From assembly GCF_013620825.1 (NCBI RefSeq), contig NZ_NJIC01000001.1:124001-188000 (forward strand): a DNA stretch of 64,000 bases, given 5' to 3'. Both the position numbers and the translations under genes were made by a program. The number at the start of each line of letters is the position of its first letter. Within the stretch, counting starts at the first letter, position 1. Below are positions 46,540 to 60,590 of this stretch, piece by piece. The notes beneath the pieces were generated by a model, which saw nothing but the letters and a program-made list of their open reading frames with translations, did no database searches and had not been told where the DNA came from. Source of the stretch: Rhodanobacter sp. PCA2 (GTDB lineage: Bacteria > Pseudomonadota > Gammaproteobacteria > Xanthomonadales > Rhodanobacteraceae).

Positions 46540-46701
46540 GCGCGGCGGCTGTTCATCGCCTGCAACAAGGCGTGCCCTAAACTAGCCGTCTGCCGGGTGT
46601 CGCCTTGCCGCATCCGCCCGGCGCACCGGTCCGGTGCGGCTATGCCGCCGGACCGCCAACCGGCCGTCTGCCGGATCTTTTCCAGGGAAAACGAGCGTCG
46701 C

Positions 46702-49308
46702 GTGGAGCAGGAAAAAGTCGAACAGGTGCCGCGCACGGAAGAGGCCCTGGACCCGCCCAGCCAGCGGGTGGTGCTGTTGCGCCGGATTGCCGGGCCGCTG
46801 CTGTCGGTGGGCATGCTGTGCCTGGCGCTGTGGGCGCTGCACCTGCTGGCGCGCGACGTCACCTACCACGAGATCCGCCAGTACGTGGAAAGCGTGTCGC
46901 GCACGCGCCTGCTGATGGCGATCGCGCTGACCACGCTGGGTTTCGGCGTGATGTCGTTCTACGACCGCTTCGGCCTCGAAGCGATCGGCAAGTCGCTGCC
47001 GTGGCGGCGGGTCACCCTGATCTCCTTCATCAGCTATGCCTTCAGCAACGCGGTGGGCATGTCGCTGCTGGTGTCCGGCTCGATCCGCTACCGCTTCTAC
47101 CTGCAGAACGGCCTCACCACCACCGAGATCGCGAAGCTGGTGCTGTATTGCACGCTGAGCTTCTGGCTGGGCCTGCTGGCGCTGACCGGCGTGACCCTGC
47201 TGGTGGTGCCGCTGCCGGCCGGGCTGCCGATGAGCGACTGGCGGCTCACGCTGGCCATCGCGCTGACGGCGATTCCGCTGGCGTGGGTGCTGGGCGGCTT
47301 CATCCGCAAGCCGATCCGGCTGTGGCGCTGGCGCGTGCTGCTGCCGCGCCCGCTGCCGGCGCTGCGCCAGGTGCTGGTGGGCGCGCTGGACTGGTGGCTG
47401 GCGGCGGCGGTGATGTACGTGCTGATGCCGGACCGCCTCGACACCGGCTTCGGGCATTTCCTCGCGATCTTCGTGATCGCGCAGATCGCCGGCCTGATCA
47501 GCCACGTGCCGGGCGGCCTGGGGGTGTTCGAGGCGGTGATGCTGGCCGGCTTCGGCGCCACCGGCAACCAGGCGCTGGCGGCGCCCATCCTGGGTTCGCT
47601 GGCGGCGTTCCGCATCGTGTATTACCTGTTGCCGCTGTGCGCGGCCACGGTGCTGGTGCTGCAGCGCGAGGCGCGCGGGCTGCGCCGGCAGTCGTTGTGG
47701 TCGCCGTGGTTCACCGGGCTGCTGCCTTCGTTCTTCGCCGGCCTGACCCTGGTGTCCGGCGCGGTGCTGCTGTTTTCCGGCGCCACCCGTGCGCTGCCGG
47801 ACCGCATGGCGATACTGCGCAGCGTGTTGCCGCTGTCGGTGCTGGAAGTCTCGCACCTGCTCGCCAGCGTGATCGGCATGCTGCTGCTGATCCTCGCCCG
47901 CGGCCTGCAGCGGCGGCTGGACGCGGCCTACTGGCTGACCCTGGTGCTGCTGGTGGCCGGCGCGGTGTTCTCGCTGCTGAAGGGCATCGACTACGAGGAA
48001 GCCACCCTGCTGGCCTTGCTCGCGCTGGCGCTGGGTCCGGCGCACAAGCTGTTCTACCGGCGCGCATCGCTGTTCAACGCCAGCTTCTCGGTGGGCTGGA
48101 TCGTGGCGATCGTGGCCGTGTTCGGCTGCGCCACCTGGCTGGTGATGTTCAGCTACAAGCATGTCGAGTACAGCAGCAGCCTGTGGTGGGAGTTCAGCTT
48201 CCACGAGGGCGGCGCGCCACGCGCGTTGCGTGCGCTGGTGGGCGCGGCGGTGGCGGGGCTGCTGTTCGCGCTGGCCAGCCTGATCAAGCCGCAGCGCCTG
48301 CGCCGCACGCCGCCCAGCGAGGCGGAACTGCAGCGCGCGCTGCCGCTGATCCGCGGCTTCCATTCCGCGCAGGCGCACCTCGCGCTGATGGGCGACAAGC
48401 ACCTGCTGTTCGACGCCGACGGCAAGGCCTTCCTGATGTACGACACCGAGGGCCGCAGCTGGGTGAGCATGGGCGATCCGGTGGGCGAGGACGAGGACGC
48501 GCGGCGCGAGCTGGTGTGGAGTTTCCGCGAGCAGTGCGAGCGGGCGGGCGGCTGGCCGGTGTTCTACCAGGTCAGCCCGGCGGACCTGGACATGTATCTG
48601 GAAGTGGGCATGAGCCTGCTGAAGATCGGCGAGGAAGCGCGCGTGCGGCTGGCGGATTTCAACCTCGACGGCAAGTCCAGGAAGACGCTGCGCGGTACCG
48701 TCAACAAGCTGGGTCGCGACGGCCTGCGGCTGGAGATCGTGCCGGCCAACGAGGTGGCGCCGCTGCTGCCCCGGCTCAAGGAGATCTCGGACGCGTGGCT
48801 GGGCGACAAGCACGCGCGCGAGAAGCGCTTTTCGCTGGGCGCGTTCGACCCGCGCTACCTGGTGCGCACGCCGATGGCGCTGGTGTGGCAGGGCGAGCGC
48901 ATCGTGGCGTTCGCCAACCTGTTCCTCACCGAGACGCGGGAAGAGGCCTCGCTGGACCTGATGCGCTTCGTGCCCGACGGCCCTTCCGGCATCATGGATT
49001 ACCTGTTCGTCGAGCTGATGCAGTGGGCGAAGGCGGAGGGCTACCGCTGGTTCAACCTTGGCATGGCGCCTCTTGCGGGCCTCACCAGCCGGCGCCAGGC
49101 GCCGCTGTGGAACCGCTTCGGCGCGCTGGTGTTCGGCCGCGGCGAGCGCTTCTACAATTTCCGCGGCCTGCAGCGCTACAAGGACAAGTTCGACCCCGAG
49201 TGGGAGCCGCGCTACATGGCCGTGCCGGGCGGCATTGCGCTGCCGATGATTCTCGCCAACGTGGCCAGCCTGATTTCCGGCGGCCTCACCGGGGTGGTGC
49301 GCCGATGA
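46702..49308 (+). CDS. mprF: phosphatidylglycerol lysyltransferase (MprF)
   Basis: A protein of about 868 residues with an N-terminal multi-spanning flippase-like half (about 14 helices to residue 520) and a C-terminal DUF2156 cytosolic synthase domain (about 535-865). Markers are HVPGGLGVFEAVML in the membrane part and MYDTEGRSWVSMGDPVG and LDLMRFVPDGPSGIMDYLFVE in the synthase part. It transfers lysine from lysyl-tRNA to phosphatidylglycerol, lowering surface charge and resistance to cationic peptides. I chose a GTG at 46702; an ATG at 46642 is possible but its extension has poor codon usage. It leads an ATGA-overlapping chain. Confidence 0.9.
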   Translation: MEQEKVEQVPRTEEALDPPSQRVVLLRRIAGPLLSVGMLCLALWALHLLARDVTYHEIRQYVESVSRTRLLMAIALTTLGFGVMSFYDRFGLEAIGKSLPWRRVTLISFISYAFSNAVGMSLLVSGSIRYRFYLQNGLTTTEIAKLVLYCTLSFWLGLLALTGVTLLVVPLPAGLPMSDWRLTLAIALTAIPLAWVLGGFIRKPIRLWRWRVLLPRPLPALRQVLVGALDWWLAAAVMYVLMPDRLDTGFGHFLAIFVIAQIAGLISHVPGGLGVFEAVMLAGFGATGNQALAAPILGSLAAFRIVYYLLPLCAATVLVLQREARGLRRQSLWSPWFTGLLPSFFAGLTLVSGAVLLFSGATRALPDRMAILRSVLPLSVLEVSHLLASVIGMLLLILARGLQRRLDAAYWLTLVLLVAGAVFSLLKGIDYEEATLLALLALALGPAHKLFYRRASLFNASFSVGWIVAIVAVFGCATWLVMFSYKHVEYSSSLWWEFSFHEGGAPRALRALVGAAVAGLLFALASLIKPQRLRRTPPSEAELQRALPLIRGFHSAQAHLALMGDKHLLFDADGKAFLMYDTEGRSWVSMGDPVGEDEDARRELVWSFREQCERAGGWPVFYQVSPADLDMYLEVGMSLLKIGEEARVRLADFNLDGKSRKTLRGTVNKLGRDGLRLEIVPANEVAPLLPRLKEISDAWLGDKHAREKRFSLGAFDPRYLVRTPMALVWQGERIVAFANLFLTETREEASLDLMRFVPDGPSGIMDYLFVELMQWAKAEGYRWFNLGMAPLAGLTSRRQAPLWNRFGALVFGRGERFYNFRGLQRYKDKFDPEWEPRYMAVPGGIALPMILANVASLISGGLTGVVRR

Positions 49309-50123
49309 GCATGTCGAAACGAGGAAAGCGGATCATGTGGGCTGGTATCGGCGTGTGCGTGCTCGGGCTGGCGTTGGTGTGGACGCCGTTTTCCAAACCC
49401 GGCCTGGAGCAGTCCGCCATCGTGCTCGCGCCGGTGGCCGGCGTGGCGCCGCCGCCCGGCAAGGACGACGTGCTCACCATCCTGTATTCCGGCGACGGCG
49501 GCTGGGCCGATCTCGACAAGCAGCTCGGCAGCGCGTTCGTGGCGCGCGGCATCCCGGTGGTGGGCGTCAACGCGTTCAAGTATTTCTGGCGCAGCCGCTC
49601 GCCCGACGACGCGGCCGCGGAGCTGGACGCGCTGATGACCAAGTACCTGGACCAGTGGCACAAGCGGCGCGTGTGGCTGGTGGGCTTCTCGTTCGGCGCC
49701 GACGTGCTGCCCAGCCTGATCGACAAGCTCAGCCCCGCGAACCGCGCGCGCATCGCCCAGCTGGTGCTGCTCTCGCCCAGCCGCGACACCAGCTTCGAGA
49801 TCCAGTTCGAGGGCTACATGGTCGCGCAGGGGCGCTTCAAGGCGTTCGTGAAGACCATGCTGGAGAAGTTCAACAAGGTGCCGCACTACGATGCGCTGCC
49901 GCCGGTGCAGGCGCTCAAGCAGCAGTTTCCGGTGGTCTGCTACTACGGCAAGGACGGCGCCGACGACAGCTTGTGCACCGATCCCGGCCTGCCGGCCTGG
50001 GTGAAGGTGAACGCGAAGAACGGCGATCACCATTTCGAGGGCGGCTACCAGCCGCTGGCAGCGCAGATGGTGGGCGAATTGCCCGCGGCCGCTGCCACCG
50101 TGGCGACGCCCGCGCAGCCATGA
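49305..50123 (+). CDS. VirJ/AcvB-like hydrolase
   Basis: A 272-residue protein with one N-terminal membrane helix (IMWAGIGVCVLGLALVW) and a periplasmic alpha/beta-hydrolase-like domain carrying YSGDGGWADLD, VGVNAFKYFW, GFSFGADVLPS (nucleophile serine) and the C-terminal DHHFEGGY histidine. This is the VirJ/AcvB/AtvA family. In Agrobacterium, AcvB cleaves lysyl-phosphatidylglycerol. Here its ATG overlaps the mprF stop by four bases, the same synthase-hydrolase pairing. Confidence 0.88.
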   Translation: MSMSKRGKRIMWAGIGVCVLGLALVWTPFSKPGLEQSAIVLAPVAGVAPPPGKDDVLTILYSGDGGWADLDKQLGSAFVARGIPVVGVNAFKYFWRSRSPDDAAAELDALMTKYLDQWHKRRVWLVGFSFGADVLPSLIDKLSPANRARIAQLVLLSPSRDTSFEIQFEGYMVAQGRFKAFVKTMLEKFNKVPHYDALPPVQALKQQFPVVCYYGKDGADDSLCTDPGLPAWVKVNAKNGDHHFEGGYQPLAAQMVGELPAAAATVATPAQP

Positions 50124-51187
50124 GTGCAGGCTTCGCCGCCGACGCGCCGGAGGCGGCGCTGTCCGCGTTGTTCGTGCCGTTCGACGCCGGCCTGCTGCAG
50201 TTGCCGCCGGATGGCCGCGCGCTGTTCCTGCGCGCCCGCTCCGGCGTGCGCCTGCGCGAAGTCGCGCAACCCGGCTGGTTGTGCGAGCAGAGCTTCCTGC
50301 CGTTCGCCGACGAACTGGCGCGTTGCGGCCTGCGCGTGGGCGAGCCGGCCGACGGCGAAACCTTCCCGCTGGTGCTGCTGCTGCCGCCACGCCAGCGCGA
50401 CGAGGCGCGCGCACTGTTCGCCCGCGCGCTGGACCATCTCGCGCCCGGCGGCACGCTGGTGGCGAGCATGGCCAAGGCCGAGGGCGCGAAGTCCGGCGAG
50501 GCGGACCTTGCGCGGCTGGCCGGTGCGGTGGGCAACCTGTCCAAGCACCACTGCCGCGTGTTCTGGACCACGCCCGCGCCGGAGACCATCGACCGCGCCC
50601 TCCAGGACGAGTGGCGCGCGCTGGACGCTCCGTGCGAAACCGCCGACGGCTGGTGGAGCCGTCCCGGCCTGTTCGCCTGGGACCGCGTGGACCGCGCCTC
50701 CGCCTTGCTGGCGGAACACTTTCCCGCCGACCTCGGCGGCCGCGTCGCCGACCTCGGCGCCGGCTACGGCTACCTCGCCACACAATTGATCGCGCGTTGC
50801 CCGGCCATCACGGCGCTGGATCTGTACGAAGCGGAGGCACGCGCGCTGGAGCCGGCGCGCCGCAACGTTGCGAACGCACTGCAAGCCGCGGGGCGCGCTA
50901 TCCCGGTGAACGTGCATTGGCACGACGTCACCCGCGGCCTGCCGCAGCGCCACGACGCCATCGTCAGCAATCCACCGTTCCACCTGGGCCGTGCCGACTT
51001 GCCGGAGCTGGGCCGCGCCTTCATCGCCAGCGCCGCCGATGCGTTGTCGCCCTCCGGCCGCCTGCTGATCGTGGCGAACCGCCACCTGCCTTACGAGGCC
51101 CTGCTCGCCGCGCGCTTCGCCGACGTGCGGCAGCTCGCGCTGCAGGACGGCTTCAAGGTGATCGAGGCCCGCGGGGTGCGTGCATGA
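50120..51187 (+). CDS. rsmC: RsmC-like class I SAM methyltransferase (16S rRNA G1207)
   Basis: A 355-residue protein with a degenerate N-terminal half and a C-terminal methyltransferase half, as in RsmC. Motif I is VADLGAGYGYLAT (about 208-220), and the catalytic NPPFH is near residue 285 in IVSNPPFHLG, typical of N2-guanine methyltransferases. E. coli RsmC methylates G1207 of 16S rRNA. The start overlaps virJ as ATGA and the end overlaps the pseudouridine synthase as ATGA. Confidence 0.85.
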   Translation: MSAGFAADAPEAALSALFVPFDAGLLQLPPDGRALFLRARSGVRLREVAQPGWLCEQSFLPFADELARCGLRVGEPADGETFPLVLLLPPRQRDEARALFARALDHLAPGGTLVASMAKAEGAKSGEADLARLAGAVGNLSKHHCRVFWTTPAPETIDRALQDEWRALDAPCETADGWWSRPGLFAWDRVDRASALLAEHFPADLGGRVADLGAGYGYLATQLIARCPAITALDLYEAEARALEPARRNVANALQAAGRAIPVNVHWHDVTRGLPQRHDAIVSNPPFHLGRADLPELGRAFIASAADALSPSGRLLIVANRHLPYEALLAARFADVRQLALQDGFKVIEARGVRA

Positions 51188-51903
51188 AACTGGTCAAGCT
51201 GATCGCGAACCTGGGCTACGGCAGCCGCAAGGACGTGGCCTGGATGTTCCGCGAGGGCAGGATCACCGACGTCGACGGCGAGGTGCTGTACGCCGACGAC
51301 AAGCTGGAGCACGCGCGCATCCTCGTCGACGGCGAGCCGCTCGATCCGCCGCCCGGCCTGGTGCTGATGATGCACAAGCCGCTGGGCGTCACCTGTTCGC
51401 GCAAGGACGCGGGGCGCGTGGTCTACGATCTGCTGCCGCCGCGCTACCGCGTGCGCGAACCCGCGCTGTCCACCGTGGGCCGGCTGGATCGCGACACCGC
51501 GGGCCTGCTGCTGTTCACCGACGACGGCGCGCTGCTGCACCGGATCATCTCGCCCAGGGCCAACGTGGCCAAGGTCTACGAGGCCACCCTGGCCGAAGAC
51601 CTGCGCGGCGACGAAGCCGCGCTGTTCGCCAGCGGCACGCTGCTGCTGGAATCGGAAACCACGCCGCTCGCTCCCGCCGCGCTGGACGTGCTGGGCCCGC
51701 GCCATGCGCGACTGGTCCTGCACGAAGGCCGCTACCACCAGGTGCGCCGCATGTTCGCCGCCACCGGCAACCGGGTGGAAACCCTGCAGCGCGTGGCGAT
51801 AGGCGCACTCACGCTGGGCGAACTGGCGCCGGGCGCGTGGCGCGCGCTGGGCACCGAAGACGTCGAGCGGATCTTCACTGCGATGCCTGAAGCGCTGACG
51901 TAG
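51184..51903 (+). CDS. rsuA: 16S rRNA pseudouridine synthase (RsuA-like)
   Basis: A 239-residue RsuA/RluB/E/F-family protein. The N-terminal S4-like domain (1-60) begins MKLVKLIANLGYGSRKDVAW. The catalytic aspartate is D102 in GRLDRDTAGLLLF, and the usual KVYEATL and EGRYHQVRRMFA motifs follow. RsuA makes pseudouridine-516 in 16S rRNA; the length and the neighbour RsmC support the small-subunit assignment. It ends the four-gene chain. Confidence 0.88.
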   Translation: MKLVKLIANLGYGSRKDVAWMFREGRITDVDGEVLYADDKLEHARILVDGEPLDPPPGLVLMMHKPLGVTCSRKDAGRVVYDLLPPRYRVREPALSTVGRLDRDTAGLLLFTDDGALLHRIISPRANVAKVYEATLAEDLRGDEAALFASGTLLLESETTPLAPAALDVLGPRHARLVLHEGRYHQVRRMFAATGNRVETLQRVAIGALTLGELAPGAWRALGTEDVERIFTAMPEALT

Positions 51904-52029
51904 CGGGCGGAAACGAAAAAGCCGGGTAACTCGGGCAAGCCGGGCCTTTGTCTGGAATGAAGGGGCGGAGCGGAAAGGGGGGCGACCGGAAACGGCCGGT
52001 TGCCGGGCATGAGGCGCTGCGGCGGCCTT

Positions 52030-52071
52030 TTGACATCTACAAACTTGCGGATGGCGACAGCAGTCGCCATC
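52030..52071 (+). promoter_or_regulatory. candidate promoter/operator of the sia cassette
   Basis: TTGACA (52030-52035), a perfect -35 hexamer, is followed by an inverted repeat GATGGCGAC-AGCA-GTCGCCATC (52050-52071) that covers the place where a -10 box would be; no good -10 hexamer is visible there. The site is about 77 bases before the phosphatase ATG. It may be an operator or a mRNA hairpin. Confidence 0.4.
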
Positions 52072-52147
52072 GGATTGATTGTCTTGAAGATATGTCATCA
52101 GTTCGTCATTTAACCTTTTGATGCTACCTTCCACCAAGGGGGATGGG

Positions 52148-53389
52148 ATGGCAACGTCAGTGCAAATCACGCCGGGAATGCGGGGGTATGGACCGGCCGA
52201 GATACAGTGCGCCGCAAGCCTCTGCCGGCCGGGGCCCACGGTCGCGCCCACGGACACGAATGCGACCGTACGCGACCTGTTCGACCGGCATCGGGAGCTG
52301 ATCAGCCTGCCGGTGATCGACGGCACGCGCGCGTGCGGCCTGATCAAGCGGCGCACGTTCCAGTCCGAGATGGCCAAGCCATTCCGCCAGGAGCTGCACG
52401 AGCACAAGAGCTGCGTCGCCTTCATGGACGGGCAACCGCTGATCATCGAGGCGGAAACGTCGATCGAGCGCACGGCGAAACTGGTGGCCGACAGCCACAC
52501 GGACGCCCTCGCCGACGGTTTTCTGGTGGTGCGCGGCAACGAGTTCCTCGGCATAGGTTTCGGCCTCGACCTGATGCGCAAGGTCGCCGACCAGCAGGAG
52601 GCGAGGAATCGCCAGATCATGCAGAGCATCGACTACGCGAGCGTCATCCAGCGCGCGATGCTGCAGACTTCGCAGGAGATCCTGAAGGCGGAGCTGCCGG
52701 ATTCGGCGATCGTGTGGCAGCCGCGCGACACGGTCGGAGGCGATTTTTTCCAGTGCGCCAAATTCGACCATGGCGTCTTCATCGCGATGGCGGACTGCAC
52801 CGGACATGGCGTGCCCGGCGCCTTCATGACGCTGATCTCGTCGTCGTGGCTGGCCCAGGCGCTGGAACGCGATGGCCCCGCCGACCCCGCGCAGTTGCTC
52901 GGCACGCTCAACCGCAAGATCAAGCAATCGCTCGGGCAGATCGGCTCGCGGGTTGTCGGCGAGCAATCCGACGATGGCCTGGATGCCTTGTTCATGTGGC
53001 TCAATCGCCGGGACCGCGTGGTGACCTATGCCGGTGCGCGCATGCCGCTGCATGTGCTTCCGGACGGAGCGGCGACGGTCATCACGCACGAAACGGATCG
53101 TGTCGGCGTCGGCTACGTCGGCACGCCGATCGACCACCGCTGGAAAAACCGCACGTTGACCCTGCAGCAGGACGACCTGCTGTACGCGACCACCGACGGC
53201 CTGACCGACCAGATCGGCGGCTCCCGGAACATCGGCTTCGGCAAGCGTCGCCTGCGCCAATGGCTGCTCGATTGCCGCGACATGCCGGCGCCTGCACAGG
53301 TCGCCGCGATCATGCAGGCGCATGCCGAGTACCAGGGGCAGCACCGGCGCCGCGACGACGTCTCCCTCATCTGCCTGCGCGTGCCCTGA
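52148..53389 (+). CDS. siaA: SiaA-like PP2C/SpoIIE-type phosphatase with N-terminal CBS-like region
   Basis: A 413-residue soluble protein. Residues about 25-160 look like a CBS-domain pair (ATVRDLFDRHRELISLPVID; AETSIERTAKLVADSHTDALADGF). The C-terminal PP2C/SpoIIE domain (about 195-410) has PRDTVGGDFF, ADCTGHGVPGAFMT and DDGLDALFM metal-site motifs. P. aeruginosa SiaA is membrane-bound with a periplasmic sensor and dephosphorylates SiaC; this version has no membrane helix and so likely senses a cytosolic ligand. The ATG at 52148 follows AAGGGGGA. SiaB, SiaC and a GGDEF protein follow in close tandem. Confidence 0.85.
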   Translation: MATSVQITPGMRGYGPAEIQCAASLCRPGPTVAPTDTNATVRDLFDRHRELISLPVIDGTRACGLIKRRTFQSEMAKPFRQELHEHKSCVAFMDGQPLIIEAETSIERTAKLVADSHTDALADGFLVVRGNEFLGIGFGLDLMRKVADQQEARNRQIMQSIDYASVIQRAMLQTSQEILKAELPDSAIVWQPRDTVGGDFFQCAKFDHGVFIAMADCTGHGVPGAFMTLISSSWLAQALERDGPADPAQLLGTLNRKIKQSLGQIGSRVVGEQSDDGLDALFMWLNRRDRVVTYAGARMPLHVLPDGAATVITHETDRVGVGYVGTPIDHRWKNRTLTLQQDDLLYATTDGLTDQIGGSRNIGFGKRRLRQWLLDCRDMPAPAQVAAIMQAHAEYQGQHRRRDDVSLICLRVP

Positions 53390-53397
53390 GAGCCCTC

Positions 53398-53952
53398 ATG
53401 AACCATTCCGAGTACCGCGTATTTTCGGACTTCGTCAAAGAGCGCAAGATCGTATTCTACTACTACGGCTACTTCTCGCAGACCATCGTTTCGGCCATGG
53501 CCGAAACGATCAAGTTGAGCATGAAGCAGGCGGACACCACCGCTGCGGTCAAGCGCAAGCTGTTCTCGTGCTTTGTGGAGATGGCGCAGAACATCATCCA
53601 CTACTCGTCCGAGGCGCTCACCCCGGCGACGCAGGACGATGCCGAGGTCCGCCAGGGCTCGGTCTGCATCGGCCATACCGACGAACGCTTCTACCTGATG
53701 TGCTCCAATCGCGTCTCCGCGAACGACATGGGGCCGTTGCGCGAGAAGCTCGAACCGCTCAAGTCGATGACGCTGGAAGAGATCAAGCGCGCCTACCAGG
53801 ACACGCTGCGTTCCGAACAACCGGAGGGCAGCAAGGGTTCCGGGCTCGGATTCCTCACCGTCGCGCGCGATGCCAGCAAGCCGCTCGAATTCGAATTCGC
53901 TCCCCTCGACAACCACGATGACATGATGTTCTATCTGAAAGTGACCGTCTGA
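53398..53952 (+). CDS. siaB: SiaB-family protein kinase
   Basis: A 184-residue protein of the SiaB/DUF6272 type, a GHKL-fold kinase. The N-box-like FSCFVEMAQNIIHYS (about 61-75) and the glycine-rich GSKGSGLGFLTVARDASK (about 141-157) would hold ATP-Mg. In P. aeruginosa SiaB phosphorylates the switch protein SiaC. It starts eight bases after the phosphatase stop and one base before siaC, so the three are surely cotranscribed. Confidence 0.87.
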   Translation: MNHSEYRVFSDFVKERKIVFYYYGYFSQTIVSAMAETIKLSMKQADTTAAVKRKLFSCFVEMAQNIIHYSSEALTPATQDDAEVRQGSVCIGHTDERFYLMCSNRVSANDMGPLREKLEPLKSMTLEEIKRAYQDTLRSEQPEGSKGSGLGFLTVARDASKPLEFEFAPLDNHDDMMFYLKVTV

Positions 53953-53953
53953 C

Positions 53954-54358
53954 ATGAACAACGCAACCATGGAAAACCTGTACCTGGCGGCTACGGCGGA
54001 TTCGCCGGAAGTCGACTTTCGCTTCGATGCGCACGAACTTGCGCTGAAAGGCGAGTCGTACCCGGAGAACGCCGCCGCGTTCTATGGCGGTATCATCAAG
54101 CAACTGCACGACTACCTGGCGGGTTGCAGCGAAGGCACCAGGATCACGGTCGATGTCGCGCTGATCTACTTCAACAGTTCCAGTACGAAAATGCTCTTTG
54201 CTTTCTTCGAGGCACTCAACAATGCCGCCACGCGCGGCGTGCATGTCGTGCTGAACTGGCACCACGACCCGGAAGACGACACCATCGGGGATTTCGGCAG
54301 CGAGTTGCGCGACGACTTCACCGCGCTTGAATTCCGTGACCTGCCAACTGCCAGTTGA
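53954..54358 (+). CDS. siaC: SiaC-family switch protein (DUF1987)
   Basis: A 134-residue protein of the SiaC/DUF1987 type. The LYLAATADSPEVDFRFD opening, GESYPENAAAFYGGII, and the VALIYFNSSSTKMLFAFFEAL core are the family landmarks. The hydroxyl residue in the FNSSST segment corresponds to the Thr68 phosphosite region of P. aeruginosa SiaC. Unphosphorylated SiaC binds and activates the diguanylate cyclase SiaD. It overlaps the next gene by one base (TGATG). Confidence 0.88.
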   Translation: MNNATMENLYLAATADSPEVDFRFDAHELALKGESYPENAAAFYGGIIKQLHDYLAGCSEGTRITVDVALIYFNSSSTKMLFAFFEALNNAATRGVHVVLNWHHDPEDDTIGDFGSELRDDFTALEFRDLPTAS

Positions 54359-55062
54359 TGGCCGAGCACGATCTCTTTGAGGCCGAGGAATCCGCATTGC
54401 GTGCCGCCGCGGACACGCATGCGCTGGATTCGCTCGATGCCCGGAGCTATCGCGACGCGCTGGGCACGCTCATCACCCAGTTTCGCCGGCAGGTGCGCGA
54501 GGCGCGGCGCGTCATCATGCACAGCGACCGCCAGGAACGCGAACTCAACATCCTCAACGCCAGACTGACCCAGCTCGCCGCCGAGCTCGACTACAAGGCG
54601 AAACACGACTCCCTGACCGGCGCCTACAACCGGCGTGCAGTCATCGAACTTGCCGAGGCGCACCTGCGCGACGGTGCGCTCGCGCTGATCGTGCTCGACA
54701 TCGACAATTTCAAACGCATCAACGACGAGCACGGCCATCCGGCCGGCGATGCGGTGATCGTGGAACTCGTCGCGCGGCTCCGCGCGGTCGCTCCCGAACC
54801 CGTGGAAATCGGCCGCGTCGGCGGCGAGGAATTCACCGTCGTGCTGCCGGGCATGGAGCTGGAAGCAGCCGTCGCGCTGGCAGAGCGCATGCGCGCGCAA
54901 GTCGCCTCGTCGCCGTTCGACATACCAGCCGGCCGCATCGTGACGGCAAGCTTCGGGGTCAGCTTCACCCCGTGCGGCGGCATGTTCACCGAGGCTTACG
55001 GCAGGGCCGATGCCGCACTGTACGAAGCAAAACGCCGCGGCAGGAATTCCGTGGCGTCTTGA
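54358..55062 (+). CDS. siaD: SiaD-like diguanylate cyclase
   Basis: A 234-residue soluble protein: an N-terminal helical/coiled stretch (residues 1-85, EARRVIMHSDRQERELNILN) and a GGDEF domain with the active GGEEF (RVGGEEFTVV) and DIDNFKRINDEHGH. The RxxD inhibitory site is not present at the normal spacing, so product inhibition may be weak. In SiaABCD systems the cyclase is switched on by SiaC. The ATG at 54358 overlaps the siaC stop. A TTG one codon earlier is less likely. Confidence 0.88.
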   Translation: MAEHDLFEAEESALRAAADTHALDSLDARSYRDALGTLITQFRRQVREARRVIMHSDRQERELNILNARLTQLAAELDYKAKHDSLTGAYNRRAVIELAEAHLRDGALALIVLDIDNFKRINDEHGHPAGDAVIVELVARLRAVAPEPVEIGRVGGEEFTVVLPGMELEAAVALAERMRAQVASSPFDIPAGRIVTASFGVSFTPCGGMFTEAYGRADAALYEAKRRGRNSVAS

Positions 55063-55265
55063 GGCCGGCGTGGCATTCGATCCGCAGGCTTGCGCGGACT
55101 GGTGAATGCGGTCCTGGTCGAGCTTGGCGAGTGGCCGGCGACGTGCCATGGCGCAGGCGGGCGTCCGTCGATTCCACCCGGGCGAATCCTGCGTGCTTGC
55201 TGCCGCAGGTGATGCAGGGTCTGGCACACATCTGGCCCGGCGCCGCGGGCAAACCGTGGTGCGCA

Positions 55266-55306
55266 AAGAAAAACAGCGGCATACGCCGATGCGTATGCCG
55301 CTGTTT
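55266..55306 (-). terminator. terminator after tRNA-Ala
   Basis: On the minus strand a 14-base-pair stem (AAACAGCGGCATAC at 55271-55284 with GTATGCCGCTGTTT at 55293-55306), eight-base loop, then a T-run (complement of 55266-55270). It ends 15 bases past the tRNA CCA end. Confidence 0.85.
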
Positions 55307-55320
55307 CATGCTGGGTAAGT

Positions 55321-55396
<76 letters not shown>

Positions 55397-55463
55397 ACGC
55401 GAGTCGGGCATATTAGCAGCGGGGCGGCGTGCCGCCAAGACCCCGGACGCGGGAACGGGGGTT

Positions 55464-56405
55464 TCAGGCGGCGCCCGGTTCCGCCGCGTCGTCCAGGAAC
55501 GTCGCCGTGGGCACGAAGAACAGCGAGCCGGTGACGGCGGTGCTGTAGTCCAGCAGGCGGTCGTAGTTGCCCGGCGGGCGGCCGACGAACATGTTGACCA
55601 GCATCTGCTCGATGCGCTGCGGGGAGCGCGCGTAGCCGATGAAATAGGTGCCGAACTCGCCCTTGCCGACGTCGCCGAACGGCATGTTGTCGCGCAGGAT
55701 GTCCAGTTCCTCGCCGTTCTCGACGATGGTGGTGAGGGCGTTGTGCGCGGAGCTGGGCTTCGCCGCGTCGTCCAGTTCGATGTTGGTCTGCTTGGTGCGG
55801 CCGATGATCTTTTCCTGCAGCTCGACCGGCAGCGTGTTCCAGCTTTTCAGGTCGTGCAGGTATTTCTGCACGATCACGTAGCTGCCGCCGGCGAAGCCGG
55901 GATCTTCGCCGCCGATGACCACGGCCTCGACCGCGGCCTGGTCCACCGGGTTCTCGGTGCCGTCGACGAAGCCGAGCAGGTCGCGTTCGTCGAAGTACTT
56001 GAAGCCGTGCACCTCGTCGGCGCCGGCGACCGCATCGCCGAGGCGCCCCATGATCTGGGTGGCCAGCTCGAAGCACAGGTCCATGCTGACGGCACGGATG
56101 TGGAACAGCAGGTCGCCCGGCGTGGAGACCGCGTGGTGCCGCCCCTGCAGTTCGCGGAACGGGTGCAGTTCCCGCGGCCGCGGTGCGCCGAACAGCCGGT
56201 CCCATGCGTCCGAGCCCACGCCCATGACGCACGACAAGGCCCCGTCCAGGTCGCGGAAACCCACCGCGCGCACCAGCGCGGCCAGCTCGCCGCACAGCGC
56301 CCGCACGGTCGCGCGATGCGACGGTTCCGGCTGCAGGGTGACGACCAGGAAGATGGCGGCAGGCGTGAGCCTTGCCACGACCGGTTGCGGAATGACGGAA
56401 GGCAC
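55464..56405 (-). CDS. DyP-type haem peroxidase
   Basis: A 313-residue cytosolic-type dye-decolourising peroxidase. The catalytic aspartate D148 is in GFVDGTENP (GxxDG motif), and an arginine in DILRDNMPFG supplies the distal pocket. The proximal histidine is in SSAHNAL, about residue 220. There is no Tat signal, so this is a YfeX-like cytosolic form rather than periplasmic EfeB. It is 60 bases from RNase D on the same strand. Confidence 0.9.
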   Translation of the reverse strand: MPSVIPQPVVARLTPAAIFLVVTLQPEPSHRATVRALCGELAALVRAVGFRDLDGALSCVMGVGSDAWDRLFGAPRPRELHPFRELQGRHHAVSTPGDLLFHIRAVSMDLCFELATQIMGRLGDAVAGADEVHGFKYFDERDLLGFVDGTENPVDQAAVEAVVIGGEDPGFAGGSYVIVQKYLHDLKSWNTLPVELQEKIIGRTKQTNIELDDAAKPSSAHNALTTIVENGEELDILRDNMPFGDVGKGEFGTYFIGYARSPQRIEQMLVNMFVGRPPGNYDRLLDYSTAVTGSLFFVPTATFLDDAAEPGAA

Positions 56406-56465
56406 GTCGACTCCTCGCGGGGATTTTGCGCAGTGTAGTCAGGCCGTCGCGGATTTCCCAAGCGC

Positions 56466-57578
56466 TCAGCCGGGCAGCAGGGCCGGCAGGCGCTCGTGCA
56501 GCACCTCGCGGCGCCAGCCGCCGAGGAAGTCCGGCCACTCGCGGGTGACCACGTATTCCTCCAGCACCTTGCGCGGGCAGAGCAGGCCGGGCGGCAGGTC
56601 CAGTTCGCCGGCGCGGGCGTCGACCAGGTTCTTCATCGCGTTCAGCGCCTGCTTGGCCTCGCCCTGCGGATGCGCGGGGATGGCGGCGGTGGCGGCGATC
56701 TCCTCGTCACCCACCGGCGACTGCAGCAGCGCGAACAGTTCGCTGCGCTGGGCGCTGCGCAGGGCGCGCTGGCCGCGGCTGCGCTGTTCCAGCTCGGCGA
56801 GGCTGGCCGGCGGATGCTGGGCCAGGCTCAGCGCCAGCGCATCGTCCAGCAGCCACGGGCGCGGGCGGTCCAGCACGCGTGCGCTGCGGTCGCGCCACAG
56901 CAGCACGCGGCGCAGCAAGGCCTGCTGCGCGGGCGACCATTCGGCGGCGCCGCGCAGCGCGCGCTGCGGCTGCGGGTCGCCCTCGCGGTGGGTGGCCCGC
57001 TGCTTGAGCCGGGCGCAGTCCTCGGCATGCCACGCCGCGCGGTCGCGCCGGTGCAGGCGTTCGGCGAGCTGGGCGTGGATGGATTCCAGGTACACCACGT
57101 CCAGCGTGGCGTAGCTGCGCTGCGAGGCGGTGAGCGGGCGCTGCATCCAGTCCGAGCGCGTCTCGCCCTTGTCCAGATCGTCGCCGCAGAGTTCCGCGAC
57201 CAGCGCGCGGTAGCTGATGCCCAGCCCCATGCCGGCGAACGCGGCGGCGATCTGGGTGTCGAACAGCGTGTGCGGGCCGCCGGGCAGCAGCGGCTCCAGC
57301 GTTTCCAGGTCCTCGCCGGCGCTGTGCATCACCGTGACGCCGCCGCGCGTGCCCAGCGCGGGCTGCAGCGCATCGCCGATCGCGAACGCCAGCGGGTCGA
57401 CCAACGCGTGCCGCCCGCGGCAACCCAGTTGCAGCAGGGCGAGCTGCGGGTGGAAGGTATCGCGGCGCATGAACTCGGTGTCGACGCCGATCAAGGCGTC
57501 CGCCGGCACGTCGTCCAGCCAGGCTTGCAGCGCGGCGCGGTCGGCGATCCAGTCGGCGGTGACATCGGGCAGGGACAC
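56466..57578 (-). CDS. rnd: ribonuclease D
   Basis: A 370-residue 3'-5' exoribonuclease of the DEDDy family, trimming tRNA 3' ends. Exo motifs: DTEFMR (D33, E35), HSAGEDLETL and FDTQIAA, and YATLDVVYLESI. C-terminal HRDC-like regions follow (about 210-360). The GTG at 57578 has GGAG eight bases upstream; the open frame extends further but without a ribosome site. It is followed by the DyP peroxidase gene. Confidence 0.92.
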   Translation of the reverse strand: MSLPDVTADWIADRAALQAWLDDVPADALIGVDTEFMRRDTFHPQLALLQLGCRGRHALVDPLAFAIGDALQPALGTRGGVTVMHSAGEDLETLEPLLPGGPHTLFDTQIAAAFAGMGLGISYRALVAELCGDDLDKGETRSDWMQRPLTASQRSYATLDVVYLESIHAQLAERLHRRDRAAWHAEDCARLKQRATHREGDPQPQRALRGAAEWSPAQQALLRRVLLWRDRSARVLDRPRPWLLDDALALSLAQHPPASLAELEQRSRGQRALRSAQRSELFALLQSPVGDEEIAATAAIPAHPQGEAKQALNAMKNLVDARAGELDLPPGLLCPRKVLEEYVVTREWPDFLGGWRREVLHERLPALLPG

Positions 57579-57652
57579 GTGGATTGCTCCGTCATCGGTG
57601 GTGACATAAGGTGAGCGGCGCACGATAACAGGCCGATCCGGGAACGCCCAGC

Positions 57653-59593
57653 ATGCCGAGCAACACCACGCTGCATCGCCAACGCACGCTCGGCGGCATG
57701 ATCGGCATCCTGGTGCTGGCATTCGGCCTCGGCTACCACTTCTTCCCGCGCCTGTTCCATGCCGAACCGGGCGAGGTCGCGCGGCGCAACCTGCCGACGC
57801 TGCCGGCCGCCGCGCCCGGCGGCGCGGCGGCCGCCAACGAGCCGGCGACCGAGGAACTGAACGCGGGGCCGCCGTTGACCCTGGCGCCCACTGCGGTGAT
57901 CGCCGCGCGGCTCAGCCGCGAGCACACCAGATTGCCGGAGCAGCTCACGCCCGATCCACCCAGGCTGCGCGCGCTGTTGGACCGCGCCGCCAAGGCGCTG
58001 GCGGCCGGCCGCCTGGCCGGCGACAAGGACGGCGCCGCGGCGCTCTATCTGCAGGCAGCGAAGGACAAGCCCGACAGCCGCCGCGCGGCGCAGGGCGTGA
58101 TCGACGTGCGCGCGCGGCTGGTGGCGCAGATCGAGCGCGACCTCGCGCTGGGCAACGCCGAAGACGCCACCGACCAGCTGGCGACGCTGCAGCAGTTGCC
58201 GGACAGTAAGGACGACGTGGCGCGCTTCACGGCCGCGTTGAAGACGCTCACCGACGTTCGCCCGCTGCTCGCCAAGGCGGCCGGTCTGCTGCAGCAGGGC
58301 AAGGCCGACGAGCCGGCCGGCCGCAGTGCGCTGGACATCTACCGGCAGGTGCAGCAGCTCGATCCGCAGAACGCGGTGGCGGAGCAGGGCGTGCTGGACG
58401 TGCAGCACGTGGTGCTCGACCGCGCGCTCGCCGCGGTGGCGCAGAACGATTTCGCCCGGGCGGACAAGGTGCTGGTCGAGGCGCAGGCGATCCGCCCCGG
58501 CTCGCAGCAATTGCACGACGTGCGCCAGCGGGTGGAGGACATGCGCGTCGCGCGCGCCAGCGGCGTGCTGGCGCAGGCGCACTCCGCGCTGGACGCGGGC
58601 AACCTTGCGCTGGCGCGGCAGCTCGCCGCCCAGGCGCAGGCCACCAGTCCGCAACTGGAAGGCCTCGCCGCGTTCGAGCAGCAACTGGTCAACGCGCAGT
58701 TGTACGCCAGCTACAAGCCCGGCCAGGTGTTCAGCGACCGCTACGTCGACCTGCCCGGGCAATCGCCGGCGATGGTGGTGATCCCCACCGGCAGCTTCAT
58801 GATGGGCGCGGCCGACGACGACAGCGGCCGCAGCGCGTCCGAGCAGCCGCTGCACAAGGTAAGCATCGAGCAGGGCTTCGCGATGTCGCGCAGCGCGATC
58901 ACCGTGGGCCAGTTCCGCGAATTCGTGCGCGAGAGCGGCTACGTTCCCGACTCGGTAAAGCACGGCGGCGCCAGCGTCTACGACGAGCGCAGCGGCGCGA
59001 TGCGCGACGACGGCAACGCCACCTGGCAGGACGACTATGCCGGGCACACGGCCGCCGACAACCTGCCGGTGGTCAACGTTTCCTGGGCCGACGCCAAGGC
59101 CTACGCCGACTGGCTCGCCAAGCGCACCGGCAAGAAATACCGCCTGCCCAGCGAGGCCGAGTTCGCCTACGCGCTGCGCGGCGGCACCACCACGCGCTAC
59201 TGGTGGGGCGACGACATGCCGCAGCGCAAGGTGGAGAACCTCACCGGCTCGCGCGACCGCTCGCCCAGTGGCCGGCGCTGGAACCACGCGTTCCGCGGCT
59301 ACGACGACGGCTACTGGGGACCGGCGCCGGCGATGAGCTTCGCAGCCAATCCGTTCGGCCTGTACGACATGGGCGGCAACGTCTCCGAGTGGATGGCCGA
59401 CTGCTGGCACGACAACTACATCCGCGCGCCCGTCGACGGCAGCGCGTGGCTCAACCCCGGTTGCGGCGTGCGCGTGCTGCGCGGCGGTTCCTGGGGCAGT
59501 TCGCCGGACCAGGCGCGCTCGGCCTGGCGGCAGGGTGCCGACGCCGGCGTGCGCAGCGGGCGCGTCGGCTTCCGGGTGGTGCGCGAACTTTGA
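57653..59593 (+). CDS. membrane-anchored protein with TPR-like region and SUMF1 domain
   Basis: A 646-residue protein. Residues about 13-33 form a signal-anchor, 90-350 a helical, TPR-like periplasmic region with repeated LARGD-type segments, and 370-645 a formylglycine-generating-enzyme (SUMF1/EgtB) type domain with VVIPTGSFMMG, RLPSEAEFAYALRGG and NVSEWMADCW. The cysteine pair that binds copper in true FGE (after RGGSW) is absent here, so formylglycine synthesis is unlikely. A binding or other oxidase role, as in PvdO- or SUMF-like proteins, is possible. Confidence 0.78.
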   Translation: MPSNTTLHRQRTLGGMIGILVLAFGLGYHFFPRLFHAEPGEVARRNLPTLPAAAPGGAAAANEPATEELNAGPPLTLAPTAVIAARLSREHTRLPEQLTPDPPRLRALLDRAAKALAAGRLAGDKDGAAALYLQAAKDKPDSRRAAQGVIDVRARLVAQIERDLALGNAEDATDQLATLQQLPDSKDDVARFTAALKTLTDVRPLLAKAAGLLQQGKADEPAGRSALDIYRQVQQLDPQNAVAEQGVLDVQHVVLDRALAAVAQNDFARADKVLVEAQAIRPGSQQLHDVRQRVEDMRVARASGVLAQAHSALDAGNLALARQLAAQAQATSPQLEGLAAFEQQLVNAQLYASYKPGQVFSDRYVDLPGQSPAMVVIPTGSFMMGAADDDSGRSASEQPLHKVSIEQGFAMSRSAITVGQFREFVRESGYVPDSVKHGGASVYDERSGAMRDDGNATWQDDYAGHTAADNLPVVNVSWADAKAYADWLAKRTGKKYRLPSEAEFAYALRGGTTTRYWWGDDMPQRKVENLTGSRDRSPSGRRWNHAFRGYDDGYWGPAPAMSFAANPFGLYDMGGNVSEWMADCWHDNYIRAPVDGSAWLNPGCGVRVLRGGSWGSSPDQARSAWRQGADAGVRSGRVGFRVVREL

Positions 59594-59737
59594 GCCCGCG
59601 GCGGCGGCCGGGTCGGCCGTCGGCACCGCTTCGCGCGCATTGCACTAACCAAAGCCCTGAAATTCGCGTAGATTGTGCATGCCGAACGGCCACCGCCTCG
59701 CTGGAGGCGGTGCCTTACTCAACCACGATGGATGCCC

Positions 59738-60130
59738 ATGGCTACCAAGACCACTGCCAAGAAAGCCCCCGCCAAGGCCGCCAAGCCGGCGCCGAAAGCC
59801 GCTCCCGCCGCGATCAAGCCGATCAAGGACGCGCTCAGCAAGTCCGGCCTGATCTCCCACATCGCCCAGCAGACCAGCGTCGAGACCAAGCACGTCAAGG
59901 CCGTGCTTGCCGCGCTGGAGCACGCCGTGCTGGGCGCCGTGCACAAGAAGGGCGCCGGCCAGTTCACCCTGCCGGGTCTGTTCAAGGTCAACGCCGTGCA
60001 GGTGCCGGCCAAGCCGAAGCGCACCGGCATCAACCCGTTCACCAAGCAGGAACAGGTGTTCGCCGCCAAGCCGGCCACGGTGAAGGTGAAGGTGCGTCCG
60101 CTGAAGAAGCTCAAGGACGCCGCGCTCTGA
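59738..60130 (+). CDS. HU-family DNA-binding protein with Lys/Ala/Pro-rich N-terminus
   Basis: A 130-residue nucleoid protein. The first 27 residues are Lys/Ala/Pro repeats (AKKAPAKAAKPAPKAAP), like eukaryotic histone H1 tails. The HU/IHF fold follows (residues 29-125), with GLFKVNAVQVPAKPKRTGINPFT, the DNA-binding arm region, and KVRPLKKLK at the end. The tail may bind RNA or compact DNA. An upstream ATG two codons earlier is possible. The terminators after it mark the transcript end. Confidence 0.85.
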   Translation: MATKTTAKKAPAKAAKPAPKAAPAAIKPIKDALSKSGLISHIAQQTSVETKHVKAVLAALEHAVLGAVHKKGAGQFTLPGLFKVNAVQVPAKPKRTGINPFTKQEQVFAAKPATVKVKVRPLKKLKDAAL

Positions 60131-60137
60131 GCGCCTC

Positions 60138-60200
60138 GACGCCTGCCCCCTCGGCAGGCGTCCTGCAGGAAGTACCGCAAAGGCCGCGCAAGCGGCCTTT
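60138..60200 (+). terminator. two hairpins after the HU-like gene
   Basis: GACGCCTGC/GCAGGCGTC (60138-60162) and AAAGGCCGC-GCAA-GCGGCCTTT (60179-60200). The second has the A/T-flanked form of a factor-independent terminator. Confidence 0.75.
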
Positions 60201-60264
60201 GTCTTGTCCGCTGCACGGGAAATCTGCGCCGGCGGGGCAGGCGCGATCCGGGGTGGAACCGGGG

Positions 60265-60284
60265 TTTCGGACGGTCGTCCAAAA
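60265..60284. promoter_or_regulatory. operator-like palindrome TTTCGGAC(4)GTCCaAAA
   Basis: TTTCGGAC-GGTC-GTCCAAAA: inverted arms with one mismatch. Similar in sequence to the perfect palindrome at 60469-60485, which makes a shared regulator plausible. Confidence 0.4.
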
Positions 60285-60468
60285 TGTCCGGGAGTGGGCT
60301 AACATGCCGGCATCGGGGTTCCCGCCACCATCGAGTGCGTCCTGGATTCGCAATCGTTCGGCTCCGCGTGCCGTCCGTTCGGCGCAAGCTCGGTGGCCCG
60401 CGGTCGACAGGTGGACCGGGTGCCCGCGGGCTGGCTCAGCAGCGAGTCGGGGGTGCGTGTGCCGCTGT

Positions 60469-60485
60469 TTTCGGACCGTCCGAAA
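60469..60485. promoter_or_regulatory. perfect operator-like palindrome TTTCGGACCGTCCGAAA
   Basis: An exact 17-base palindrome (8+1+8) about 105 bases upstream of the PAS-GGDEF start. It repeats the TTTCGGAC/GTCCGAAA arms of the site at 60265. The protein that binds it is unknown. Confidence 0.45.
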
Positions 60486-60515
60486 CCGTCCCTGTTTCGA
60501 GGCGGCTCTGGTCAT

Positions 60516-60557
60516 CGGCGGGAAGTTCACGTCAATTTCCCGCCGTGTGCCTATAAG
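60516..60557 (+). promoter_or_regulatory. palindrome and -10 box before the PAS-GGDEF gene
   Basis: CGGCGGGAA (60516-60524) and TTCCCGCCG (60537-60545) are perfect arms with a 12-base loop. Six bases later is TATAAG (60552-60557), a good -10 hexamer, 34 bases before the ATG at 60591. No good -35 box is visible, which suits an activator- or repressor-controlled promoter. Confidence 0.5.
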
Positions 60558-60590
60558 ACATAGCTTGCGATGCGAATGCCGAGGGCGAAC

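Follow-up and report, generated by a model that had tools for sequence, protein, structure and literature searches.

Results

A four-gene SiaABCD-like operon

The window analyzed here (the whole 64,000-nucleotide stretch from Rhodanobacter sp. PCA2) carries on its forward strand, at positions 52148 to 55062, an intact operon of four closely packed open reading frames (ORFs) that resemble the siaABCD genes of Pseudomonas aeruginosa: a phosphatase (A), a kinase (B), a switch protein (C), and a diguanylate cyclase (D), with the ATG of the D gene overlapping the stop codon of the C gene (position 54358). In P. aeruginosa, the kinase blocks SiaC, the phosphatase frees it, and free SiaC activates SiaD (PMC7647112, PMC8457831, and PMC12834913; these and the other articles with PMC numbers are cited from excerpts).

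An initial annotation had proposed such a tightly spaced SiaABCD-type set, and both the ORFs and the profile searches bear it out. The profile check that it suggested for the first gene returned SpoIIE/PP2C (PF07228) at 87.2 bits (cut-off, 25); the kinase matches DUF6272 (138.2 bits) and the subfamily model SiaB_fam_kinase (NF038262; 201.7 bits, cut-off 85), the switch protein matches SiaC (PF09345; 124.2 bits, gathering cut-off 24.5), and the cyclase matches GGDEF (PF00990; 115.9 bits). Sequence searches against PDB led to the PP2C domain of P. aeruginosa SiaA for A (6k4e; E value of 1.2e-44), to SiaC for C (6k4f; 1.1e-15), and, as second in the list, to SiaD for D (7e6g; 1.1e-24). The kinase matched a single chain, 6kko_A (7.8e-11), labeled "putative serine phosphatase" by its depositors; because the entry also holds SiaC, we take this chain to be SiaB despite the label. 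Acidic PP2C residues D199, D216, D350, and D403-D404 line up with 6k4e and do not vary across an eight-row alignment. None of the models for the P. aeruginosa equivalogs was reached: SiaA (NF038263) scored 194.5 versus 700 bits, with the match confined to the C-terminal part, and SiaB (NF038264), SiaC (NF038265), and SiaD (NF038266) scored 78.1 versus 225, 77.4 versus 150, and 138.6 versus 290 bits, respectively. Since all four cut-offs are missed, the operon is a SiaABCD-like set and not the same system. Its four genes, their domain layout, and their motifs are intact, and the operon has three traits that recur below: a serine at the phosphosite of the switch protein, one binding motif in the cyclase stalk, and a cyclase that lacks an RxxD inhibitory site (I-site).

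Table 1. Features of the operon and its flanks, in coordinates of the window
Feature	Position	Strand	Basis
PhoB-box-like direct repeat, ATGTCAT-CAGT-TCGTCAT	52092-52109	+	De novo motif; held-out scan
siaA-like gene, soluble PP2C phosphatase of 413 amino acids (aa) with a CBS pair	52148-53389	+	SpoIIE PF07228; model and fold match
CBS pair, residues 20-155	52205-52612	+	Pfam CBS on residues 26-70; fold alignment to AcuB
PP2C (SpoIIE-type) domain with linker helix, residues 157-413	52616-53386	+	6k4e by sequence and fold
siaB-like gene, SiaB-family kinase, 184 aa	53398-53952	+	NF038262 profile; 6kko chain A
siaC-like gene, 134-aa switch protein of the SiaC family	53954-54358	+	PF09345; 6k4f
Ser75 codon	54176-54178	+	Alignment with P. 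aeruginosa SiaC, in which the phosphorylated residue is T68
siaD-like gene, 234-aa diguanylate cyclase with intact GGEEF but without RxxD	54358-55062	+	PF00990; 7e6g
Single SiaC-binding stalk motif VIMHSDRQE, SiaD residues 52-60	54511-54537	+	Alignment; motif count
GGEEF active-site motif, residues 155-159	54820-54834	+	Motif read in ORF; alignment
tRNA-Ala gene adjoining the operon	55321-55396	-	Comparison with genus relatives
DyP-type-peroxidase-like gene beyond tRNA-Ala	55464-56405	-	Sequence reading

A soluble phosphatase with a CBS pair

The phosphatase was initially described as a soluble protein carrying a CBS-like region. Hydropathy detects no transmembrane (TM)-like segment in the 413-aa protein, in agreement with that description, and the CBS-like region likewise stands: Pfam recognizes one CBS repeat (residues 26 to 70) at 23.8 bits, just below the cut-off of 24, and in an AlphaFold model (built on eight alignment rows; mean predicted local distance difference test score of 78), residues 20 to 155 align with CBS pairs at Z scores of 15 to 15.6 (VIA-align), as two tandem CBS domains would. 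The alignment with AcuB (9qs7_A; Z, 15.6) spans 129 residues at a root mean square deviation of 3.2, and nucleotide-bound AcuB is among the nearest folds of the model, whose residues 157 to 413 align with the SiaA PP2C domain 6k4e (Z, 27.5). Among relatives, the CBS scores of loci L101 and L103 lie above the Pfam cut-off and those of L049 and L102 below it. We considered whether the CBS call, at 0.2 bits below the cut-off, was a chance match, and rejected this on the basis of the fold, the above-cut-off relatives, and the wider occurrence of the module. From its soluble layout and CBS-like region, the phosphatase probably senses a signal inside the cell, which upholds, by inference, the earlier suggestion of a cytosolic rather than a periplasmic input.

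Relatives of the CBS part extend beyond SiaA-type proteins to CBS-GGDEF proteins (some with EAL) and soluble histidine-kinase-like proteins of ~430 aa, with output types assigned by motif patterns. Four residues (Gly64, Arg68, Phe125, and Gly135) are identical in 23 SiaA-type, 13 EAL-GGDEF-type, and 2 kinase-type modules, a comparison that left out 12 more rows (1 without an assigned type and 11 assigned as GGDEF only). That CBS-GGDEF proteins and CBS kinases also carry this module agrees with an exchange of sensors among phosphatases, kinases, and cyclases, which has been proposed for coiled-coil linkers (PMC12143880), in an article whose main text does not mention CBS. As a separate observation, two loci (L033, 1489 to 2781; L041, 691 to 2010) appear from their sequences to encode ~430-aa soluble proteins that join the same CBS pair to a histidine kinase.

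Whether this pair senses anything can be questioned. The ribose motif usual in CBS domains carries an Asp; here, the first repeat has Thr70 at that position, and Asp141 of the second is replaced by Gln in 2/8 rows. Because the usual Asp is not kept, an adenine nucleotide as the ligand is not assured, and a PDB profile search for the exact ligand returned generic CBS matches only. The loss of this Asp from the first repeat and its variability in the second weigh against an adenine-nucleotide-gated phosphatase, and they would suit a SiaABCD-like switch whose CBS pair only dimerizes the phosphatase, with control exerted by expression and kinase ATP alone; the promoter repeat described below, which suggests transcriptional control, would suit it too. 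We nevertheless judge such a non-sensing pair unlikely: the four residues above are invariant over three kinds of output, as expected of a shared site, and the same module on three outputs fits an exchangeable sensor of the kind proposed in PMC12143880.

Two types of SiaABCD

SiaC matched in 67 genomes, and we read 40 neighborhoods of the gene, fetched for 33 of these genomes (35 loci) plus 5/5 other genomes of the window's family; 22 loci belong to the window's class and 18 come from other classes. The 22 class neighborhoods divide into 13 of a CBS type, with phosphatases of 409 to 465 aa, and 9 of a membrane type, with phosphatases of 599 to 695 aa bearing two or three TM-like segments and, in 5/5 of those scanned, a HAMP domain (hence HAMP type). 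No CBS phosphatase occurs in the 18 loci of other classes, five of which have no PP2C gene in the piece fetched. Genes A, B, C, and D stand together in 12/13 CBS-type class neighborhoods (L102 being without D) and in 11/11 loci of another set, although in one of these, L014, the D gene is cut by the end of the locus.

The two types differ consistently in the switch protein and the cyclase. At the position of phospho-T68 of P. aeruginosa SiaC, all 23 CBS-type rows have Ser, whereas 9/9 HAMP-type rows have Thr; rows from other classes also have Ser (18/18), so Thr is the special case. The SiaD stalk has one SDRxE-like motif in 21/21 CBS-type rows, compared to a pair of SDxxQ motifs in the HAMP type (9/9), and the RxxD I-site occurs in 0/21 versus 7/9. 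Patterns for these counts were written after both types had been inspected; the 23-row counts omit duplicates (L089 shares its genome with L047, and L090 with L048), the counts for D omit L014 and L102, and the rows are related, so that the counts are not independent events. A single branch parts the CBS type from the HAMP type in trees of A (support, 99/97), B (100/99), and C (100/98), built from 23 CBS rows and 7/9 HAMP rows together with 13 other-class rows that were assigned to no group; long branches were flagged in the B and C trees, most of all L102, a row that is best treated as unsure.

Taken as a sister type of the SiaABCD switch that is soluble and CBS gated, the window's operon is, in our judgment, more probably than otherwise read correctly. 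The difference from SiaA noted in the initial annotation is thus real as regards the soluble CBS layout but is not peculiar to this locus: full-length CBS-type SiaA occurs in 35/399 genomes of one order (Burkholderiales, by inference from Cupriavidus, its nearest named kin), and by these sequences the CBS type is a broader sister type, more general than a single locus. Annotated examples reside on Caballeronia and Paraburkholderia plasmids, with genes for SiaB and DUF1987 and an adjoining cyclase, which in the second example is annotated as hypothetical and was recognized by BLAST.

Three loci depart from these patterns. L102 (G937:C30, 3937 to 6385) encodes another CBS-type phosphatase, kinase, and switch protein; this divergent set has no cyclase gene in the piece fetched, its SiaC site reads YINSAST, and its SiaC branch is very long. 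In L050 (7219 to 8211; Cupriavidus sp. D384), kinase and SiaC share one 330-aa frame, either because B is fused to C or through an error in the sequence. L093 (G672), a HAMP-type locus from the window's family, has a SiaD without RxxD and stalk-motif matches at 46 and 185 of the ORF as read, compared to a 32-residue spacing in the other eight HAMP-type loci.

Predicted phosphosite and cyclase output

In the window's SiaC, Ser75 aligns with T68. The initial annotation had pointed to Ser/Thr choices in the surrounding FNSSST; it had the right region, but the alignment fixes the aligned site as Ser75. A mixed or degenerate site was rejected given the uniform Ser of CBS-type and other-class rows, and Ser is likewise found at 17/17 readable sites of 25 fresh loci (8/25 were not readable).

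As was noted initially, the cyclase lacks RxxD: the aligned position reads PEPV. The further claim that its output would be unlimited by product does not follow. Mutation of R201 in P. aeruginosa SiaD basically abolished feedback (PMC8457831), and the aligned residue in the window, R177 (numbered by counting on the alignment), is still Arg; product inhibition may therefore remain, which tells against its assured loss.

In P. aeruginosa, four SiaC molecules sit on two SiaD chains through two motifs, with T68 contacting S82 and Q86 (PMC8457831). One stalk motif per chain predicts a 2:2 SiaC:SiaD complex, and Glu60, which stands at the position of Gln86, might further weaken the binding of phosphorylated SiaC. 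The single motif and the Glu60 substitution could also be taken to mean that SiaC controls another target and SiaD is unregulated, as could L102, where A, B, and C have no D beside them. Given how regularly the four genes are kept together (12/13 and 11/11, as above) and how the stalk motif is retained (21/21), we consider a separate SiaC target to be quite improbable.

A PhoB-box-like promoter repeat

Thirty-eight base pairs ahead of the first gene lies a direct repeat of two 7-mers with an 11-bp period. A Gibbs search given no starting motif recovers it from the 320 bp preceding the CBS region in 20 siaA genes of the CBS type, with an information of 14.95 (for 15 Markov-resampled sets, the mean is 10.18 and the highest value is 10.61). 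It is found again in 19 rows that exclude the window along with its three close relatives (14.97; resampled maximum, 10.54). A matrix trained on 19 sites, again without those four loci, was tested against dinucleotide shuffles: it scores the held-out window at a P value of 0.004 and the three relatives at 0/1000 shuffles each, and on leave-one-out, 18/19 rows fall below 0.05, 17/19 of them at the trained site (L100 scores elsewhere). The training sites had been picked in a Gibbs run that included the four held-out loci; a run without them picks 18/19 of the same sites, L100 being the one that differs, and one training locus, L091, is from the window's family.

Applied to regions upstream of pstS, the sia matrix scores 12/14 against shuffles and 14/14 against random windows; all of its sites come from sia promoters, so a matrix blind to pst genes still scores pst promoters. 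Against shuffles, the controls score lower: HAMP-type siaA promoters at 1/9 and reverse strands at 3/23. The HAMP-type windows were anchored at each ORF's first start codon, hence a rescan of a wider window (-400 to +150), which again gives 1/9, and a Gibbs search of the nine HAMP-type promoters finds no such repeat (run without a resampled control).

The PHO box has a half-site of CTGTCAT and an 11-nucleotide period (PMC4415409). Because an earlier half-site matrix, made from pstS boxes located by the sia matrix, was partly circular, we used this literature word instead. Of 14 spacings, 11 bp is favored in the CBS type (12.4/23 pairs and 9.8/23 triples; 1.6 expected) and in the 25 fresh loci (5.1/25 pairs and 7.2/25 triples; 1.8 expected), which are what remains of 30 loci from the wider order after 5 whose genomes were already in the training set were dropped. 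Control values are 0.7 pairs and 1.9 triples of 9 for the HAMP type (0.6 expected), 1.4 to 2.8 for reverse strands, and 0.2 to 4.7 for scrambled or reversed words. De novo, all 25 fresh rows yield an 11-bp repeat (11.61; resampled maximum, 10.43). PhoB scores above the cut-off in 13/13 genomes checked, the window's own included, and PstS is present in 13/13 as well.

Several results weigh against PhoB control or blur it. Controls in the spacing test are not entirely flat: the reversed word reaches 4.7/23 in the first set, more than any other control word, and the HAMP-type triples also exceed expectation. Against random windows, 2/9 HAMP-type promoters reach a P value of <0.05. In the fresh set, the frozen matrix reaches that level in only 9/25 loci (reverse strand, 4/25), and when the set is thinned to 14 rows from 13 genera, the de novo signal is marginal (10.77; resampled maximum, 10.65). 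A scan of the window's own genome with CTGTCATNNNNCTGTCAT at up to two mismatches yields 12 matches (2 for a backwards-read control), and the window's box, needing 3 mismatches, is absent from the list; a tighter pattern has two matches, the window's and one other. We set these fixed-consensus scans aside as proof of Pho regulon membership. In a word-count scan, the window has 11/14 letters, equaled by 19/2000 random stretches (0.95%).

A PhoB-box-like sequence is thus present in the window's promoter, and less strongly in those of the fresh loci. Direct repeats of 11 bp are used across the wider OmpR/PhoB family, and with 24 to 107 PhoB-model matches per genome and the weaker signal in the fresh loci, a different regulator of that family might bind the repeat, leaving the operon outside the Pho regulon. 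We regard this as a serious but rather doubtful alternative, since the sia matrix scores pstS promoters as it does and both half-site and period match the PHO box of PMC4415409. Judged by its promoter sequence, PhoB control is likely in the window and its near relatives, but whether it holds throughout the type is uncertain, and the window's operon is probably switched on at low phosphate.

Two of the 12 matches to CTGTCATNNNNCTGTCAT are PhoB-box-like repeats ahead of other genes of the window's genome: one precedes a gene with a Porin_O_P match ~0.9 kb from pstS (L172, 8680 to 8697; G000:C5:68679), and another lies ~130 bp before a gene that, by sequence reading, is malate-synthase-like (L173; G000:C61:147305).

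Distribution and apparent gain of the operon

SiaC is found in 6/197 genomes of the window's family, and it is absent from 14/14 other members of the genus searched (a few of them incomplete), which leaves the window's genome as the sole carrier among 15. The three close relatives share 86 to 87% DNA identity with the window over 52093 to 55062, starting at the promoter repeat; the rest of 46001 to 61000 has no match in them (pieces of ~13 kb), and the operon DNA has no match in the 12 genus relatives fetched. By these comparisons the operon looks recently gained, and the simplest reading is that it was acquired horizontally, as a unit, beside the adjoining tRNA-Ala gene. In 9/12 genus relatives, this tRNA gene lies downstream of the pseudouridine synthase gene that in the window is upstream of the operon, within ~150 bp in four and at 1.1 to 2.4 kb in five; since the distances differ, the site varies, and the tRNA-Ala flank looks like a variable site. 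In L146 and L151, a homologue of the DyP-like gene that the window has beyond the tRNA separates the tRNA from the pseudouridine synthase gene, and the DyP-like gene has no match in the fetched pieces of L144, L145, L149, L150, and L155.

Discussion

A proposed mechanism

By analogy with P. aeruginosa, SiaB would use ATP to phosphorylate SiaC at Ser75, leaving it unable to bind the SiaD stalk; phosphatase A would remove the phosphate, and free SiaC would then occupy one site per SiaD chain and stabilize the active dimer, which would synthesize the biofilm signal cyclic di-GMP (c-di-GMP). The CBS pair, in place of a membrane sensor, would bind a cytosolic ligand, with the linker helix relaying its state to the PP2C dimer, and PhoB, to go by the promoter, would induce the operon when phosphate is scarce. 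Two inputs would therefore set the c-di-GMP output: phosphate, through transcription, and the cytosolic ligand, through the phosphatase. As a tentative reading that goes well beyond the operon itself, and which we would not yet rely on, CBS-type SiaABCD may be a distinct, horizontally moving, PhoB-controlled c-di-GMP switch in which the CBS ligand sets Ser phosphorylation, SiaD and SiaC pair 2:2 without the classical product brake, and the CBS pair is a sensor that c-di-GMP enzymes, phosphatases, and histidine kinases have exchanged. Beyond what was first annotated, the analysis adds the promoter box, the absence of a second SiaC-binding motif, and the proposed horizontal gain.

SiaABCD serves as a model for how a phospho-switched partner controls a diguanylate cyclase, and the articles cited here describe one membrane version; among the matches listed, we found no open-access description of a CBS-type SiaA or of a Pho-controlled SiaABCD. 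The soluble sister type points to the Ser/Thr site, one stalk motif, and GGEEF as essential parts, and to the membrane sensor, the second SiaC site, and RxxD as parts that can change. Because A is soluble, the input to the PP2C-SiaC switch could be studied with purified parts. If the promoter reading is true, phosphate shortage would be tied to c-di-GMP synthesis in Rhodanobacteraceae and Burkholderiales.

Comparison with known systems

With P. aeruginosa SiaABCD (PMC7647112, PMC8457831, and PMC12834913), the window's operon shares its gene order, its set of PP2C phosphatase, kinase, DUF1987 switch protein, and GGDEF cyclase, the acidic PP2C residues, the SDR stalk motif, and GGEEF. It differs in having a soluble CBS pair in place of the membrane HAMP sensor of SiaA; in having Ser75, one stalk motif, and no RxxD in place of T68, two motifs, and RxxD; and in its PhoB-like box, which is found mainly in the CBS type.

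Other systems resemble single parts of the operon. EAL-CBS-GGDEF proteins (DdpB of Bordetella, PMC12805831, and RMET_RS24295, PMC6629876) have a homologous CBS pair, but their output is EAL/GGDEF, whereas that of the window's protein is a phosphatase; identity of the CBS pair to EAL-CBS-GGDEF-type loci, which are not shown to be DdpB or RMET_RS24295 themselves, is 24 to 39% over about 110 to 160 residues. The PPM phosphatases of the RsbU/RssB type (PMC12143880) have the same expected layout of sensor, helical linker, and PP2C dimer, and the model of A has fold matches to RssB; their target is an anti-sigma antagonist, whereas that of the window's phosphatase is predicted to be SiaC. Finally, in Pseudomonas fluorescens Pf0-1, low phosphate lowers c-di-GMP through RapA (PMC3032545), a c-di-GMP enzyme whose gene is preceded by a PhoB box, much as the window's operon is by its PhoB-box-like repeat. 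RapA degrades c-di-GMP at low phosphate, whereas the window's cyclase module is predicted to be induced and would raise it, so the sign of the response in these bacteria may be opposite; if so, the operon would be a cyclase-side counterpart of the Pho-controlled RapA.

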